This document shows, one piece after another, positions 8,898-51,485 of a DNA stretch of 64,000 nucleotides. How positions within the stretch are numbered: position 1 is the first letter of the stretch; each line of letters opens with the position of its first letter. Below the pieces are notes generated by a model that was given only the letters and a program-made list of their open reading frames with translations, searched no databases and was not told the origin of the DNA. Source of the stretch: Mesorhizobium loti. GTDB lineage: Bacteria; Pseudomonadota; Alphaproteobacteria; Rhizobiales; Rhizobiaceae. Location: positions 6,991,020 through 7,055,019 of the forward strand of contig AP017605.1 in NCBI GenBank assembly GCA_002356515.1, written 5' to 3'. A program made the position numbers and the translations under genes.

Positions 8898-9715
8898 AGG
8901 CGGAACAAGCCGACACGAAACGGGATGGCAGCTGGCTCGGCCTCTACGTGCTTGCCTATCTGGTGTTTCTCTACCTGCCGGTGCTGCTGATCCCGCTGTT
9001 TTCCTTCAACGATTCCATCCAGGCTGCGTTTCCGCTGCAGGGTCTTACGTTGCAATGGTATCAGACGCTCTACGGCAATCCGGCGCTGTCGGGCGCGCTT
9101 TTGAACAGTCTCGTCATCGCCGTCATCGCCGCATCCGGCGCCACGCTATGCGGCATCACCGTTTCCTATATGGACCTCTATGGCCGCTCGCCTCTGGCCG
9201 CCACGATCAGCGCCATCGCCCGGCTGCCGATCCTCATTCCCGGTGTCATCGTCGGCATATCCCTCTTGATTCTGGTCAACCTCATTGGCCTTGGACCATC
9301 GCGCGTCGCCATCGTGCTTGGCCACATACTGGTGGCGCTGCCGACGACGGTGGTCGTCATGCGCAGCCGTTTCGCCGCCATTCCCAGGACGGTTCGCGAG
9401 GCCGCGCTCGACCTCGGCGCCTCCGACTGGACGACGTTCCGGCGCGTCATGCTGCCGCTCAGCCTGCCGGCCGTGCTGTCGGCCTTCATGCTTGCCTTCC
9501 TGATTTCCTTCGACGAATTCATCGTCGTCTTCTTTCTCGCCGGAACTGAGCCGACGCTGCCGCTCTACATCTGGAGCCAGCTGCGCTTCCCCCGCTCGCT
9601 GCCGACCGTCATGGCGCTGGGGACGGTGATCCTGGCCGTATCCTTCATCATCGCCGGCACCGCCGAGATCCTGCGCCATCGCGGGCTCGGCGCCGCGCGC
9701 CGCAATCCAGCCTGA
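8894..9715 (+). CDS. ABC transporter permease (PotC type)
   Basis: A 273-residue second permease half with six predicted helices and the EAA loop EAALDLGASDWTTFRRVMLP. The tail FDEFIVVFFLAG and TLPLYIWSQL is typical of PotC-like proteins. Translation is coupled to the PotB-like gene through ATGA. It pairs with that protein to form the translocation path. Confidence 0.92.
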   Translation: MKAEQADTKRDGSWLGLYVLAYLVFLYLPVLLIPLFSFNDSIQAAFPLQGLTLQWYQTLYGNPALSGALLNSLVIAVIAASGATLCGITVSYMDLYGRSPLAATISAIARLPILIPGVIVGISLLILVNLIGLGPSRVAIVLGHILVALPTTVVVMRSRFAAIPRTVREAALDLGASDWTTFRRVMLPLSLPAVLSAFMLAFLISFDEFIVVFFLAGTEPTLPLYIWSQLRFPRSLPTVMALGTVILAVSFIIAGTAEILRHRGLGAARRNPA

Positions 9716-10822: not shown

Positions 10823-10965
10823 CCCTTCTCCCCTTGTGGGAGAAGGTGTCGCCGAAGGCGACGGGTGAGGGGTGCTCCAGCTTGGCGCCGACGGCGATCC
10901 GTCACCCACCCCTCATCCGTCTCGGCGCTGCGCGCCGATCCACCTTCTCCCACAAGGGGAGAAGG
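10823..10965. repeat. Inverted pair of two-stem palindromic repeats (family C), no gene inside
   Basis: Forward copy 10823-10874: stem CCTTCTCCC/GGGAGAAGG, small stem TCGCC-gaa-GGCGA, then a G-rich tail. Reverse copy 10903-10965 has the same parts in opposite order. About 28 bp separate the tails, so the whole is a 143-bp imperfect palindrome. It lies between the binding-protein gene and the regulator gene and could attenuate read-through or protect the upstream mRNA. The pair has the same tail-to-tail arrangement as the pair around the DUF559 gene at 48786. Confidence 0.85.
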
Positions 10966-13891: not shown

Positions 13892-13937
13892 ATCTCCCCC
13901 CTCGTGGGGGAGATGTCCGGCAGGACAGAGGGGGGCG
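13892..13937 (+). repeat. Two-stem palindromic repeat, family C
   Basis: Stem ATCTCCCCC/GGGGGAGAT with loop ctcgt (13892-13914), then GTCC/GGAC (13915-13926) and a G-rich tail. The architecture matches the copies at 10823 and 48723. It lies between two convergent genes and might act as a bidirectional transcription end. Confidence 0.8.
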
Positions 13938-15693: not shown

Positions 15694-15793
15694 CCATGAT
15701 CCCGAAAAGTGGGAACCGGTGTTCGGAAAAGATCATGGTCAACCAAAAGAGACCGAACCCCATCCCGATTCCATCGGGATGGAACAGGCTCTA
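15694..15793. repeat. Palindromic intergenic repeat, family A (long form)
   Basis: Outer stem CCATGATC/GATCATGG, inner CCGAA/TTCGG with an AAAA bulge on the 3' side, then a linker and a second perfect 10-bp hairpin CCATCCCGAT/ATCGGGATGG (15760-15782), ending ACAGGCTCTAG. The same end occurs in the copy at 47350-47414. The CTCTAG end contains the stop codon of the LysR gene on the opposite strand. Confidence 0.85.
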
Positions 15794-31145: not shown

Positions 31146-31168
31146 ATCTCCCCCACAAGGGGGGAGAT
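31146..31168. repeat. Partial family C palindromic repeat
   Basis: Only the first stem is kept: ATCTCCCCC and GGGGGAGAT around a short A-rich loop, in the reverse orientation. It lies between the F0 terminator and the 3' end of rnhB. Confidence 0.7.
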
Positions 31169-47349: not shown

Positions 47350-47414
47350 GAGCATGATCCCGAAAAGTGGGTATCAGTTTTCGGAGAAGATCATGCTCAA
47401 TGGACAGGCTCTAG
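47350..47414. repeat. Palindromic intergenic repeat, family A (short form)
   Basis: Outer stem GAGCATGATC/GATCATGCTC, inner CCGAAAA/TTTTCGG, an 11-nt loop and an AGAA bulge, followed directly by the ACAGGCTCTAG end also seen at 15783-15793. It ends 21 bp before the glyQ start. Confidence 0.9.
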
Positions 47415-47435
47415 CCTTTGCTGTCGAGGCCACCC

Positions 47436-48380
47436 GTGACGATTGAAATCCCTGCCCATATGCACCCCAGCCGCTCGTTCCAGGGGCTGATCCTGACCTT
47501 GCACAATTACTGGGCTGCCTATGGTTGCGTCATCCTCCAGCCCTACGACATGGAGGTCGGTGCCGGCACGTTTCATCCGGCAACGACGCTGCGCGCGCTC
47601 GGGCCGCGTCGCTGGAACGCCGCCTATGTCCAGCCCTCGCGCCGCCCCAAGGATGGCCGCTATGGCGAGAACCCGAACCGGCTGCAGCATTATTACCAGT
47701 ACCAGGTGATCCTGAAGCCGAACCCGCCGAACCTGCAGGAGCTTTATCTCGGTTCGCTCCAGGCGATCGGCGTCGACCCGCTGCTGCACGATATTCGTTT
47801 TGTCGAGGACGACTGGGAAAGCCCGACGCTGGGCGCCTGGGGGCTTGGTTGGGAATGCTGGTGCGACGGCATGGAAGTCTCGCAGTTCACCTATTTCCAG
47901 CAGGTCTGCGGCATCGAATGCGCGCCGGTGGCGGGCGAGCTGACCTACGGGCTGGAGCGGCTGGCCATGTATGTGCAAGGCGTCGACAATGTCTACGACC
48001 TCAACTTCAACGGCCGCGAGGGCGCCGACAAGGTCACCTATGGCGATGTCTTCCTGCAGGCTGAGCAGGAATATTCGCGCCACAATTTCGAATACGCCAA
48101 CACGGCGATGCTGCTCAGGCATTTCGAAGACGCCGAAGCCGAGTGCAAGGCGCTGCTTGAGGCCGGCGCGCCGGCCTCGAACGATAATCTGCCGATGCAC
48201 AAGATGGTCTTCCCGGCCTACGACCAGTGCATCAAGGCCAGCCATGTCTTCAACCTGCTCGACGCACGCGGCGTGATCTCGGTCACCGAGCGGCAGAGCT
48301 ACATCCTGCGGGTGCGCAACCTGGCGAAAGCCTGCGGCGAGGCGTTTCTGAAGACGCAGGCCGGCGGATTGGCGGCTTAG
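47436..48380 (+). CDS. glyQ: Glycyl-tRNA synthetase alpha subunit
   Basis: A 314-residue catalytic subunit. [49 protein letters not shown] is diagnostic. It charges tRNA-Gly with the beta subunit. GTG 47436 has GAGG six bases upstream; ATG 47460 is a shorter option. It is separated from glyS by 873 bp that hold a small reverse frame and the DUF559 cassette. Confidence 0.97.
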
Positions 48381-48556: not shown

Positions 48557-48722
48557 GGTCGTTCAGCCAATGGTTCCCTGCCTGAGCGTGGGTCGCTCCA
48601 GCGCTGCGTTCGGTTCATGGAAATCTTTGATCCAAGGACGGGCCGGATCGCTGCGGCCCGACAGGGCGGTCAAAATTTCTGGAAAGGGTGACAGCGGCCA
48701 GCCGAGTTGCTATGCCCCCTTT

Positions 48723-48774
48723 ACCTCCCCCTGGATGGGGGAGGTCGCCGCGAAGCGGCGGGTGGGGGTGCTGG
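48723..48774 (+). repeat. Two-stem palindromic repeat, family C (left of DUF559)
   Basis: Stem ACCTCCCCC/GGGGGAGGT with loop tggat, then CGCCGC-gaa-GCGGCG, then a GGTGGGGGTG tail pointing toward the DUF559 gene. Confidence 0.88.
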
Positions 48775-48785
48775 CGCGACTTTCC

Positions 48786-49178
48786 ATGCCGAAACTCGAT
48801 CGGTTCAAGCTGCAGTCCGCGCAACGGCTTCGTGCGGCAATGACCGACGAAGAACGCATTTTGTGGCGGCATCTGTGGCGCATTCCGGTCGAAGGCACTC
48901 ATTTCCGCAGGCAGGCGTCGGTCGGCATCTACTTCCCGGATTTCATCTCACACCGACTGAAGCTGATCATCGAGGTGGACGGAGCCCATCACAGCTTCGA
49001 TGACCAGCAGCGCCATGACGAGCGTCGAACAAAATGGTTCGAGAGCCAGGGTTATCGCGTCGTCCGCTTCTGGAACCATGAAATCAAAAACGAACTGGAT
49101 TCCGTGCTCGATACGATTTATGCGGCGATGGAAGAACGAAAATCCCACCTTGGCCCGCGAGACGCCGAAGGCGCTTGA
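48786..49178 (+). CDS. DUF559 (Vsr/PD-(D/E)XK-like) endonuclease domain protein
   Basis: A 130-residue protein with the DUF559 pattern: AMTDEERILWRHL, FRRQASVGIYFPDF and LKLIIEVDGAHH, then GYRVVRFWNHEI. D52, E63 and D65 are candidate metal-binding residues of a Vsr/PD-(D/E)XK-like nuclease core. Activity of such stand-alone proteins is largely unknown. ATG 48786 matches the family start but lacks a clear ribosome site; the frame is open upstream through the repeat. Its G+C (55-60% in samples) is somewhat below its surroundings. Confidence 0.85.
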   Translation: MPKLDRFKLQSAQRLRAAMTDEERILWRHLWRIPVEGTHFRRQASVGIYFPDFISHRLKLIIEVDGAHHSFDDQQRHDERRTKWFESQGYRVVRFWNHEIKNELDSVLDTIYAAMEERKSHLGPRDAEGA

Positions 49179-49189
49179 GACCGAGACGC

Positions 49190-49241
49190 CGCCACCCCAC
49201 CCCGGCGCTAACGCGCCGACCCTCCCCATCAAGGGGAGGGT
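49190..49241 (-). repeat. Two-stem palindromic repeat, family C (right of DUF559, inverted)
   Basis: C-rich tail, then CGGCGC/GCGCCG, then ACCCTCCCC/GGGGAGGGT with loop atcaa: the same parts as the left copy in mirror order. The GAGGAG next to its end (49243-49248) is the glyS ribosome site. Confidence 0.88.
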
Positions 49242-49253
49242 GAGGAGCTAACC

Positions 49254-51485
49254 ATGCCTGACCTGCTTCTAGAACTTCGCTCCGAGGAAATCCCCGCGCG
49301 CATGCAGCGCAAGGCGGCGGGTGATCTCAAGAAGATGCTGACCGACGGTCTGGTCGAGGCGGGTCTGACCTATGAGGCGGCGCGCGAGTACTGGACGCCG
49401 CGGCGCCTGACTCTCGACATCAGGGGGCTGACCGCACGCTCGAAGGATATAAGCGAAGAGATCAAGGGGCCGTCGACATCAGCCCCCGAGCAGGCGGTCC
49501 AGGGGTTCCTGCGCAAGGCCGGGCTGTCTTCGGTCGCCGAGGCGCATGTCCATTCCGACCCGAAGAAGGGCGACTTCTTCGTCGCCCACATTTCGAAGCC
49601 GGGCAGGGCGGCCGAAGAGATCATCGCCGAGCTGGTGCCGGGCATTATCCGCAATTTCCCCTGGCCGAAGTCGATGCGCTGGGGGCCGGCCTCGGCCAAG
49701 CCGGGCTCGCTGCGCTGGGTGCGGCCGCTGCAATCGATCCTGTGCACCTTCGGCCCTGAGACCGAGGAACCTGTCGTGGTCGACTTCGAGATCGACGGCA
49801 TTCGCTCCGGCAACGTCACCTTTGGCCATCGTTTCCTGGCGCCGGGCGAAATCACCGTGCGCCGCTTCGACGATTATGTGAGCAAGCTGGAAGCGGCAAA
49901 GGTCGTGCTCGACGCCGACCGTCGCAAGGAGATCATTCTTGCCGACGCCCGCAACCTCGCCTTTGCCAACGGGCTCGACCTGGTCGAGGACGAAGGCTTG
50001 CTGGAGGAAGTGTCCGGTCTGGTCGAATGGCCCGTCGTGCTGATGGGCGAGTTCGAGCAGGATTTCCTCGCCATTCCGGCCGAGGTGATACGGCTGACCA
50101 TCCGCGCCAACCAGAAGTGCTTTGTCACGCGCCCGCAAGGCGAGGGCGAGGCGCTCTCCAACCGCTTCATCCTCACCGCCAACATCGAAGCCAGGGACGG
50201 CGGCAAGGAGATCGCCCACGGCAACGGCAAGGTGGTGCGCGCCCGTCTGTCCGACGCGCTCTATTTCTGGACGACCGACCAGGGCGATCTGCCCGATCTC
50301 GGCCAGCTCGAAGCATCGGCTGAAAAGTTCGGGCTCGATCTGAAAAAGCCGCTCGACCAGCGCATGGCCCGCCTCGACCACCTCGGCGTTACCTTCCACG
50401 CCAAGCTCGGCACGCAAGGCGAGCGAGTGGAGCGGATCAGCCGGCTCGCCGAAGAACTGGCGCCGACCGTCGGTGCTGACCCGGCGCTCGCCGCTCGCGC
50501 CGCGGTTCTCGCCAAGGCCGATCTCACCACCGAAATCGTCGGCGAGTTCCCCGAACTGCAGGGCGCCATGGGCCGCAAATACGCGTTGCTCCAGGGCGAG
50601 CACCCGTCCGTGGCCGCGGCCATCGAGGAGCACTACAAGCCGCAAGGTCCATCTGATCGTGTACCGAGCGATCCGGTGTCGGCTGCGGTAGCGCTTGCCG
50701 ACAAACTCGACACGCTGGTCGGCTTCTGGCTGATCGACGAAAAACCTACTGGGTCAAAAGACCCCTATGCCTTGCGAAGGGCAGCGCTGGGCGTGGTCAG
50801 AATATTGGTGGAGAACAGCGTACGGCTGAACGTCGTTGAAACGATGGAAGCTCATGTTCCGCGAGCTCATCAATCGATAAAGGAGGCTCTCCTTAGGCAA
50901 GGTGGAACCTTCGCTATCGGCCAAGGAATGCAACAATTCAGAGGGAGGCAGGTTGATTCCAGCGTCCTCGACCTCCTCGCCTTCTTCCACGATCGCCTCA
51001 AAGTCTACCTTCGCGACCAGGGCGCTCGCCACGATCTCATCGACGCCGTCATCACGCCGCAGTCCGACGACCTCTTGCAGATCGTCCGCCGCGTCGAAGC
51101 GCTCGGCTCCTTCCTTGATACCGAGGACGGCAAGAACCTGCTCGCCGGCACCAAGCGTGCGGCCAACATCCTGGCTGCCGAGGAGAAGAAGAAAACGGCG
51201 ATTGCCGAAGCCGTTGAGCCGGCTCTGTTCCAGGAGAATGCCGAGAAATCGCTGTTTGCGGCGGTGAATCAGGCAGAGAAGCAAGCCGGCGAAGCGATTC
51301 AAAACGAAGACTTTTCGGCCGCCATGCTGGCGCTTAGCGCGTTGCGCGAGCCCGTTGATTCATTCTTTGAAGGTGTTCTCGTGAATGATGAAGACCTGGC
51401 GGTGCGAGCCAACCGTCTGGCGCTCCTCACCCGCATCCGCGCGGCGACGGGTCAGGTCGCGGATTTCTCGAAAATCGCCGGCTGA
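49254..51485 (+). CDS. glyS: Glycyl-tRNA synthetase beta subunit
   Basis: A 743-residue subunit that binds tRNA-Gly. Seen: [21 protein letters not shown] at the start, [27 protein letters not shown] and the C-terminal anticodon-binding-like region ([20 protein letters not shown]). GAGGAG precedes the ATG. Bases 50821-50940 drop to 50% G+C (60 of 120) against 60-62% in the 60-base blocks on either side, and that segment encodes [14 protein letters not shown] and nearby text that may be a variable insertion. Confidence 0.97.

Follow-up and report, generated by a model that had tools for sequence, protein, structure and literature searches.

A DUF559 nuclease gene enclosed by inverted BoxC/PIT-type triplex repeats: a candidate homing-like element in bacterial genomes

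Introduction

RAYT transposases are thought to act on repetitive extragenic palindromic (REP) sequences, short hairpins with which they are associated in a number of bacteria (see below). A second repeat, the BoxC/PIT/TM_ECO motif of Escherichia coli, combines the hairpin CCCTCTCCC..GGGAGAGGG with a third strand of reverse-Hoogsteen type, GGGTGAGGG, and is reported to form a triplex in vitro (Holder et al. 2015; PMC4666352). These authors state that remnants of transposases or integrases were never found around the E. coli sites and call the mechanism and origin of the repeats unanswered; the main text of their report describes the repeats alone, and the terms DUF559, nuclease and endonuclease are all absent from it (PMC4666352). 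The present work concerns a DUF559 nuclease gene lying between two inverted repeats of this kind in the glyQ-glyS interval of Mesorhizobium loti, within a 64,000-nucleotide stretch of DNA (contig AP017605.1, forward-strand positions 6,991,020 to 7,055,019; hereafter the window). Comparison across phyla suggests that a widespread selfish element, ending in BoxC/PIT-type triplex repeats, probably has the DUF559 gene as its coding part. In the open-access literature, a scope outside which most subscription papers and preprints fall, no title or abstract opening among the papers listed links DUF559 to these repeats, and none of the 14 papers mentioning DUF559 also contains "repetitive extragenic palindromic".

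The nuclease gene and its flanking repeats

The window gene (48786..49178, forward strand) encodes a protein of 130 amino acids from its ATG and matches Pfam PF04480 with an E value of 1.3e-34. On its left lies a triplex repeat (48724..48768, forward strand) composed of a hairpin (48724-48744), a small second stem at about 48746-48760, and a third strand on the gene side (48760-48768); the hairpin arms read CCTCCCCC-loop-GGGGGAGG and the third strand reads GGGTGGGGG. The right repeat (49195..49240, reverse strand) is inverted, with its third strand at 49195-49203 followed by the second stem and a hairpin at 49220-49240. The original prediction had described precisely such a forward repeat, DUF559 gene and inverted repeat between glyQ and glyS, with both tails facing the gene, and this arrangement is confirmed; the short gaps that it placed between tails and gene also exist, but their size is not about 11 bp, as they measure 17 nt from tail to ATG and 16 nt from stop to tail, depending on where the tail is delimited. 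The core residues that it named are conserved as well, since D52 and E63 are invariant and D65 is present in at least 90% of an alignment of 35 sequences that includes the window protein. The two repeats are unequal in sequence and length, and an ungapped repeat finder applied to the window did not report them as a pair. When folded as single-stranded DNA, in a calculation covering the hairpins only, the left (z -4.53) and right (z -5.04) copies each surpass 200 of 200 shuffles. Rfam models give nothing at E <= 1 between 48600 and 49400, while PADLOC and PHROGs searches return weak nuclease-type or unnamed matches only.

In general form, the repeat is a pyrimidine/purine hairpin followed by a tail that mirrors the purine arm through G:G, A:A or T:A correspondences, a rule to which both window copies conform. 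The tail, described merely as G-rich in the original prediction, would thereby supply a reverse-Hoogsteen third strand, and the canonical form of the repeat flanking DUF559 genes matches the motif of Holder et al. (PMC4666352). The mirror relation is retained across otherwise dissimilar families, as in the arm/tail pairs GGGAGAGGG/GGGTGAGGG, GGGAGAAGG/GGATGAGGG, GGGGGAGG/GGTGGGGG and the AT-rich AAAGAGGGG/GGGGAGATT. Stem and tail covary, with a hairpin's own arm matching better than foreign arms do on average (235 of 285 cases), and they are oriented: among 286 hairpins flanking DUF559 genes, a perfect third strand is found on the gene side in 175 and on the far side in 84.

The predicted fold of the window protein is nearest to 3hrl, a DUF559 relative, and to the homing endonuclease I-Bth0305I. 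These nearest folds are PD-(D/E)XK nucleases, and the same model and fold search also point to similarity with the Vsr fold.

Recurrence of the repeats beside DUF559 genes

Recurrence was scored as a strict triplex motif within 320 bp of the gene, and a facing pair was counted where both copies direct their tails toward it. The loci comprise the best-scoring search returns (usually one per genome) and 60 hand-picked cases chosen with flanks unseen, mostly from complete genomes, and hence do not constitute a random sample; rows with short flanks were left out (10/224 in the strict test, 3/144 in a looser hairpin test, 5/30 for Vsr and 7/29 for viral loci). The strict motif lies beside 191 of 214 DUF559 genes, 94 of which have a gene-facing pair. 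It occurs at 53 of 60 Mesorhizobium loci (24 facing pairs), the relatives whose flanks the original prediction had proposed to inspect, at 42/47 loci from an Alphaproteobacteria survey (22), at 31/34 from a draw across phyla (12), and at 65 of 73 wider relatives (36), the last taken from the best 80 of 525 matches ranked by likeness to the window gene and including, as judged from record titles, Pseudomonadota, Planctomycetota, Chloroflexi, Nitrospirae, Desulfobacterota-type and other taxa. The arrangement is thus recurrent, extending far beyond Mesorhizobium.

The controls are low throughout. Shifted windows contain the strict motif in 8 of 418 cases, and none of 25 Vsr genes taken from the 289 genomes of the Alphaproteobacteria survey, the sole other gene family tested, carries it. 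The looser hairpin rule detects 132 of 141 DUF559 loci against 5 of 277 shifted windows. Of 19,040 random 320-bp slots placed within 400 kb of Mesorhizobium DNA, 283 hold the strict motif and none holds a facing strict pair; because pyrimidine-arm hairpins are moreover scarce (17 per 400 kb), the repeat pair around the window gene is not a matter of chance. An earlier flank-to-flank alignment score (35/77 loci over threshold, 0/77 shifted controls) was replaced by these hairpin and triplex detectors because it missed loci with several repeats on one side.

DUF559 genes are present in 59 of 61 Mesorhizobium genomes, in 93 of 289 alphaproteobacterial genomes (71 at E 1e-10 or better) and in 145 of 398 phylum-draw genomes when weak matches are counted. 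The association extends to contigs classed as viral (IMG/VR loci L318-L342), where the strict motif stands beside 17 of the 22 DUF559 genes examined, and to plasmids. Judged by eye, a Deinococcus plasmid carries a clean facing pair, and repeats also lie on both sides of the gene in a Picosynechococcus plasmid and in a record of Neisseria gonorrhoeae (the two copies in the same direction). As a separate observation, a different hairpin family, CCTTCTCCCCGTGAACGGGGAGAAGG, encloses the DUF559 match at G001:C17:9048-9576 (9186-9494); it also occurs as single copies in several Mesorhizobium genomes.

Coupling of repeat type and copy number to the nuclease

Canonical repeats reach at least three copies in 41 of 71 genomes with DUF559 and in 9 of 218 without it (odds ratio 32, uncorrected for kinship), and at least one copy is found in 26 of the 218. 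Within Mesorhizobium, the repeat types A, B, C and T follow the DUF559 tree, although B sits on two clades and one A-type locus lies inside the T clade. The type changes 5 times on the tree against a mean of 19.9 (minimum 13) in 300 within-genome shuffles of 37 genes from 13 genomes. This analysis sets the short-arm loci L169 and L178 to type B by hand and leaves out three untyped loci; without the hand-setting, 10 changes compare with a shuffled mean of 29.7. Reduction to one gene per context and type (16 genes) gives 5 changes against 7.9, with one of 500 shuffles reaching so low a value. In genome G004, all four types are present on five DUF559 genes, each within its own clade.

A-type stem copies range from 0 to 126 per Mesorhizobium genome, and under strict patterns BoxC-type repeats reach 100-126 copies per genome. 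The median A-type count is 47 in 28 genomes with an A-type DUF559 gene and 22 in 33 without one, a difference that is only supportive, as the rule for assigning A-type genes is crude (an HMM envelope that ends at 106 or 107) and the A stem is shared with a second repeat family.

The window also contains a gene-less facing doublet of A-type repeats (10824..10965, no strand assigned), with hairpins at 10824-10846 and 10943-10965 and tails pointing inward, which is possibly a non-autonomous form. Among the close A-type pairs listed for Mesorhizobium (less than 200 bp apart), 12 are facing, one ambiguous and one outward, as judged by eye from the loop; four of the five close E. coli pairs in Table 1 of Holder et al. 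likewise face inward (PMC4666352). Lone B-type hairpins (TCTCCCCC type) occur at 13893-13913 and 31147-31167 of the window, a type that also accompanies a second DUF559 gene (L002) in the same genome.

Turnover at the glyQ-glyS site

The host genes of the window locus are glyQ upstream (47418..48380, forward strand; tRNA-synt_2e), whose start is that of the listed open reading frame and may truly lie at a later ATG, and glyS downstream (49254..51485, forward strand; tRNA_synt_2f). The interval was surveyed in 50 of the 61 Mesorhizobium genomes, one of which lacked the anchor. Among the remaining 49, 16 are occupied, 24 are empty and 9 retain a single-repeat remnant, the right copy in eight and the left copy in G044; an empty site, sought at the suggestion of the original prediction, is therefore common, and the gene is not fixed there. 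Of the two outcomes that would have contradicted the original prediction, relatives without flanking repeats and a gene constant between glyQ and glyS, neither was observed. On a local tree covering 32 of the 49 genomes, the occupied state requires at least nine changes, and branches with good support make six of them unavoidable. Its distribution is close to unclustered, with shuffles equally low in 129 of 500. Occupancy thus reflects fast gain, loss or recombination. Single linkage groups the 62 Mesorhizobium loci into 14 contexts, five of which hold 51 loci. Apart from these repeats, a dispersed 48-bp repeat (CATGATCCCGAAAAGTGGG...) occurs in the window at 15695-15742 and 47353-47400, in two copies that are 88% alike, one of them upstream of glyQ.

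In-frame insertions in housekeeping and restriction genes

Fifteen of 223 open-frame DUF559 domains have more than 60 frame residues on both sides, and a Pfam scan covered ten of these. In four loci assigned to Bacteroidota by record title (L259, L269, L300, L311), DUF559 sits between both B12-binding domains of MetH, and L308 is a fifth MetH locus judged from sequence alone. Two further domains lie within the HsdM frame (L132, L315), where the part behind the insert was likewise assigned from its sequence. The insertion point is about equal in the five MetH loci and likewise in the two HsdM loci. At the PriA locus (L279), DUF559 separates the DNA-binding and helicase domains; additional cases involve an M14 peptidase frame and adjoining HsdS and TilS domains, and the in-frame loci also include L284 and L305. 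The repeats beside in-frame domains translate into PLPMGEGRGEG-like peptides. No intein domain was found by Pfam in the ten scanned cases.

The ycjD gene of Escherichia coli

The DUF559 gene of E. coli K-12 is ycjD, to which the MG1655 record assigns no function. By sequence and place, motif no. 9 in the MG1655 set of Holder et al. matches the ycjD-fabI repeat (PMC4666352), and a degenerate repeat piece overlaps the ycjD stop in K-12. A 701-bp ycjD stretch is present at 80% coverage or more in 3,365 of 5,426 E. coli genomes. Three genomes lacking ycjD, one of them ST131, were considered as an empty site and rejected, as efflux genes occupy the gap behind sapF, an arrangement also described elsewhere (PMC12817139). 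A PF04480 control search was silent in E. coli even though ycjD of MG1655 is a DUF559 gene, so that this control may miss such copies.

Discussion

Flanking by repeats, orientation bias, stem-tail covariation, tracking of nuclease clades by repeat types, presence and absence at a site, in-frame insertions and a fitting predicted fold were all recorded for DUF559 loci. These features argue that DUF559 genes are probably the coding part of a selfish, homing-like element, as the original prediction had proposed for the window locus in the form of a small mobile unit. A more specific proposal, which the evidence favors by a modest degree, is that DUF559/YcjD is the mobilizing nuclease of BoxC/PIT repeats and that autonomous mobile elements of a new class, present in several phyla, are built around it. 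In these, a PD-(D/E)XK enzyme resembling homing endonucleases would recognize the hairpin or triplex on either side of its gene and would spread the unit, in frame into housekeeping genes as well. Because its genes are usually framed by triplex-forming repeats, DUF559 is a strong candidate for the enzyme, so far missing, by which such repeats spread. Under such a mechanism, the nuclease would nick or cut its own repeat, which it would most likely recognize at replication forks, in the hairpin or triplex form of single-stranded DNA; repair or template switching might then copy either the whole unit or just one or two of its repeats to new places. Lone repeats and doublets lacking a gene would represent dead or non-autonomous products, and the many BoxC-type repeats of genomes might be what such products leave behind.

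Several observations weigh against this interpretation. Recognition of the repeat, its binding, cutting, copying and movement are steps that we infer from sequence. The strict motif is missing at 23 of 214 DUF559 genes and a facing pair at 120 of 214; by eye, repeats face outward in three MetH loci and in the PriA locus, unlike most loci, and beside a Synechocystis plasmid gene a piece resembling the repeat is present on a single side. E. coli K-12 ycjD has one intact repeat, located downstream and facing away, besides degenerate pieces. Especially weighty is the rarity of the repeat variant found in the window, whose strict pattern occurs in 22 of 61 genomes with at most two copies each, mostly at glyQ-glyS. 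Nine genomes without DUF559 contain at least three canonical repeats, and 24 of 71 genomes with DUF559 contain none. Inspection of glyQ-glyS by eye, where sites also differ by small replacements, revealed no target-site duplication of the kind that marks DDE-type insertion sequences. Two shared contexts hold 22 and 17 of the 62 Mesorhizobium loci, so that movement is not frequent. Finally, a DUF559 protein of Caulobacter has been proposed to act in mismatch repair (PMC12907096).

This last point introduces a very improbable alternative, namely that DUF559 is a Vsr-like enzyme mending 5mC-to-T mismatches and that the repeats are incidental. Caulobacter VsrA (CCNA_02930) does contain a DUF559 domain and is required for the SOS response that cells lacking the ScmA methyltransferase show (PMC12907096); the fold similarity to Vsr points in the same direction. 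Yet the motif stands at none of the 25 Vsr genes against 42 of 47 DUF559 genes, in genome sets that overlap in part, and the window protein scores 18.8 bits against the TIGR00632 cut-off of 97.85. Another host function is unlikely to a lesser degree: DUF559 might, as a repair or resolution nuclease, cut triplex or hairpin roadblocks and stay near the repeats, being regulated by them or protecting DNA, while the repeats spread otherwise. Such a service alone does not predict gene flanking, orientation bias or clade-specific repeat types within one genome, nor does it predict presence and absence at a site or in-frame insertions.

Passive association, in which DUF559 genes reside in tolerant intergenic islands that collect repeats, or in which the repeats serve as terminators or mRNA stabilizers of small genes, is quite improbable. 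It accords with the largely intergenic position of the repeats and with the concentration of Mesorhizobium loci in five contexts (51/62), but the shifted-window, random-slot and Vsr controls, the cross-genome co-occurrence and the clade-specific types all speak against it, and earlier work cited by Holder et al. found neither promoter nor terminator activity for the E. coli motif (PMC4666352). The least probable alternative is that a different enzyme, such as a RAYT (a Y1 HUH transposase), moves the repeats while DUF559 hitchhikes. RAYTs are associated with REP hairpins elsewhere (PMC3733652), but Y1_Tnp occurs in only 8 of 61 Mesorhizobium genomes, and the two Y1 genes of the window genome (L033 and L034; G000:C1 6053343 and 6055611) are framed by a different inverted repeat, GGTGACAGTGCACT, which is TIRYT-like and not of the triplex kind. 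A RAYT origin is accordingly disfavored in Mesorhizobium.

The link between DUF559 and BoxC repeats makes E. coli K-12 an immediate test system and DUF559 a candidate reader of DNA in triplex or hairpin form. It also reveals how housekeeping reading frames can acquire repeats and even a complete nuclease gene.

Comparison with known systems

A profile match between YcjD and Vsr was reported in 2005, in passages that do not name the repeats (PMC1189080), although the window protein stays far below the TIGR00632 vsr cut-off given above. Unlike BoxC/PIT repeats, the window variant carries a second stem that separates its hairpin from the third strand. The homing endonuclease I-Bth0305I (EDxHD type, PDB 3r3p) is predicted to have its catalytic fold in common with the window protein, but the DUF559 unit ends in repeats and its homing is only surmised; neither intron nor intein was found around the window gene, which is intergenic and has no Rfam match nearby. 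Rickettsia palindromic elements are palindromic repeats that also insert in frame into genes; they are not known to carry a nuclease gene.

The unit can also be likened to REP/RAYT systems. In both, small and mainly intergenic hairpins, single as well as paired, flank a short nuclease gene, and several repeat families coexist in a genome, each paired with an enzyme clade. The enzymes and repeats themselves differ: DUF559 proteins are PD-(D/E)XK nucleases matching PF04480, and not the HUH Y1 domain (PF01797) of RAYTs, and the hairpins are of the triplex type, the window copies having neither the GTAG nor the CGTC tag of REPs (PMC3733652). The analogy drawn in the original prediction holds in this sense, with DUF559 in 59 and Y1 in 8 of the 61 Mesorhizobium genomes, and the element may be viewed as REP/RAYT-like in its logic, assembled from unrelated parts on both the enzyme and the repeat side.
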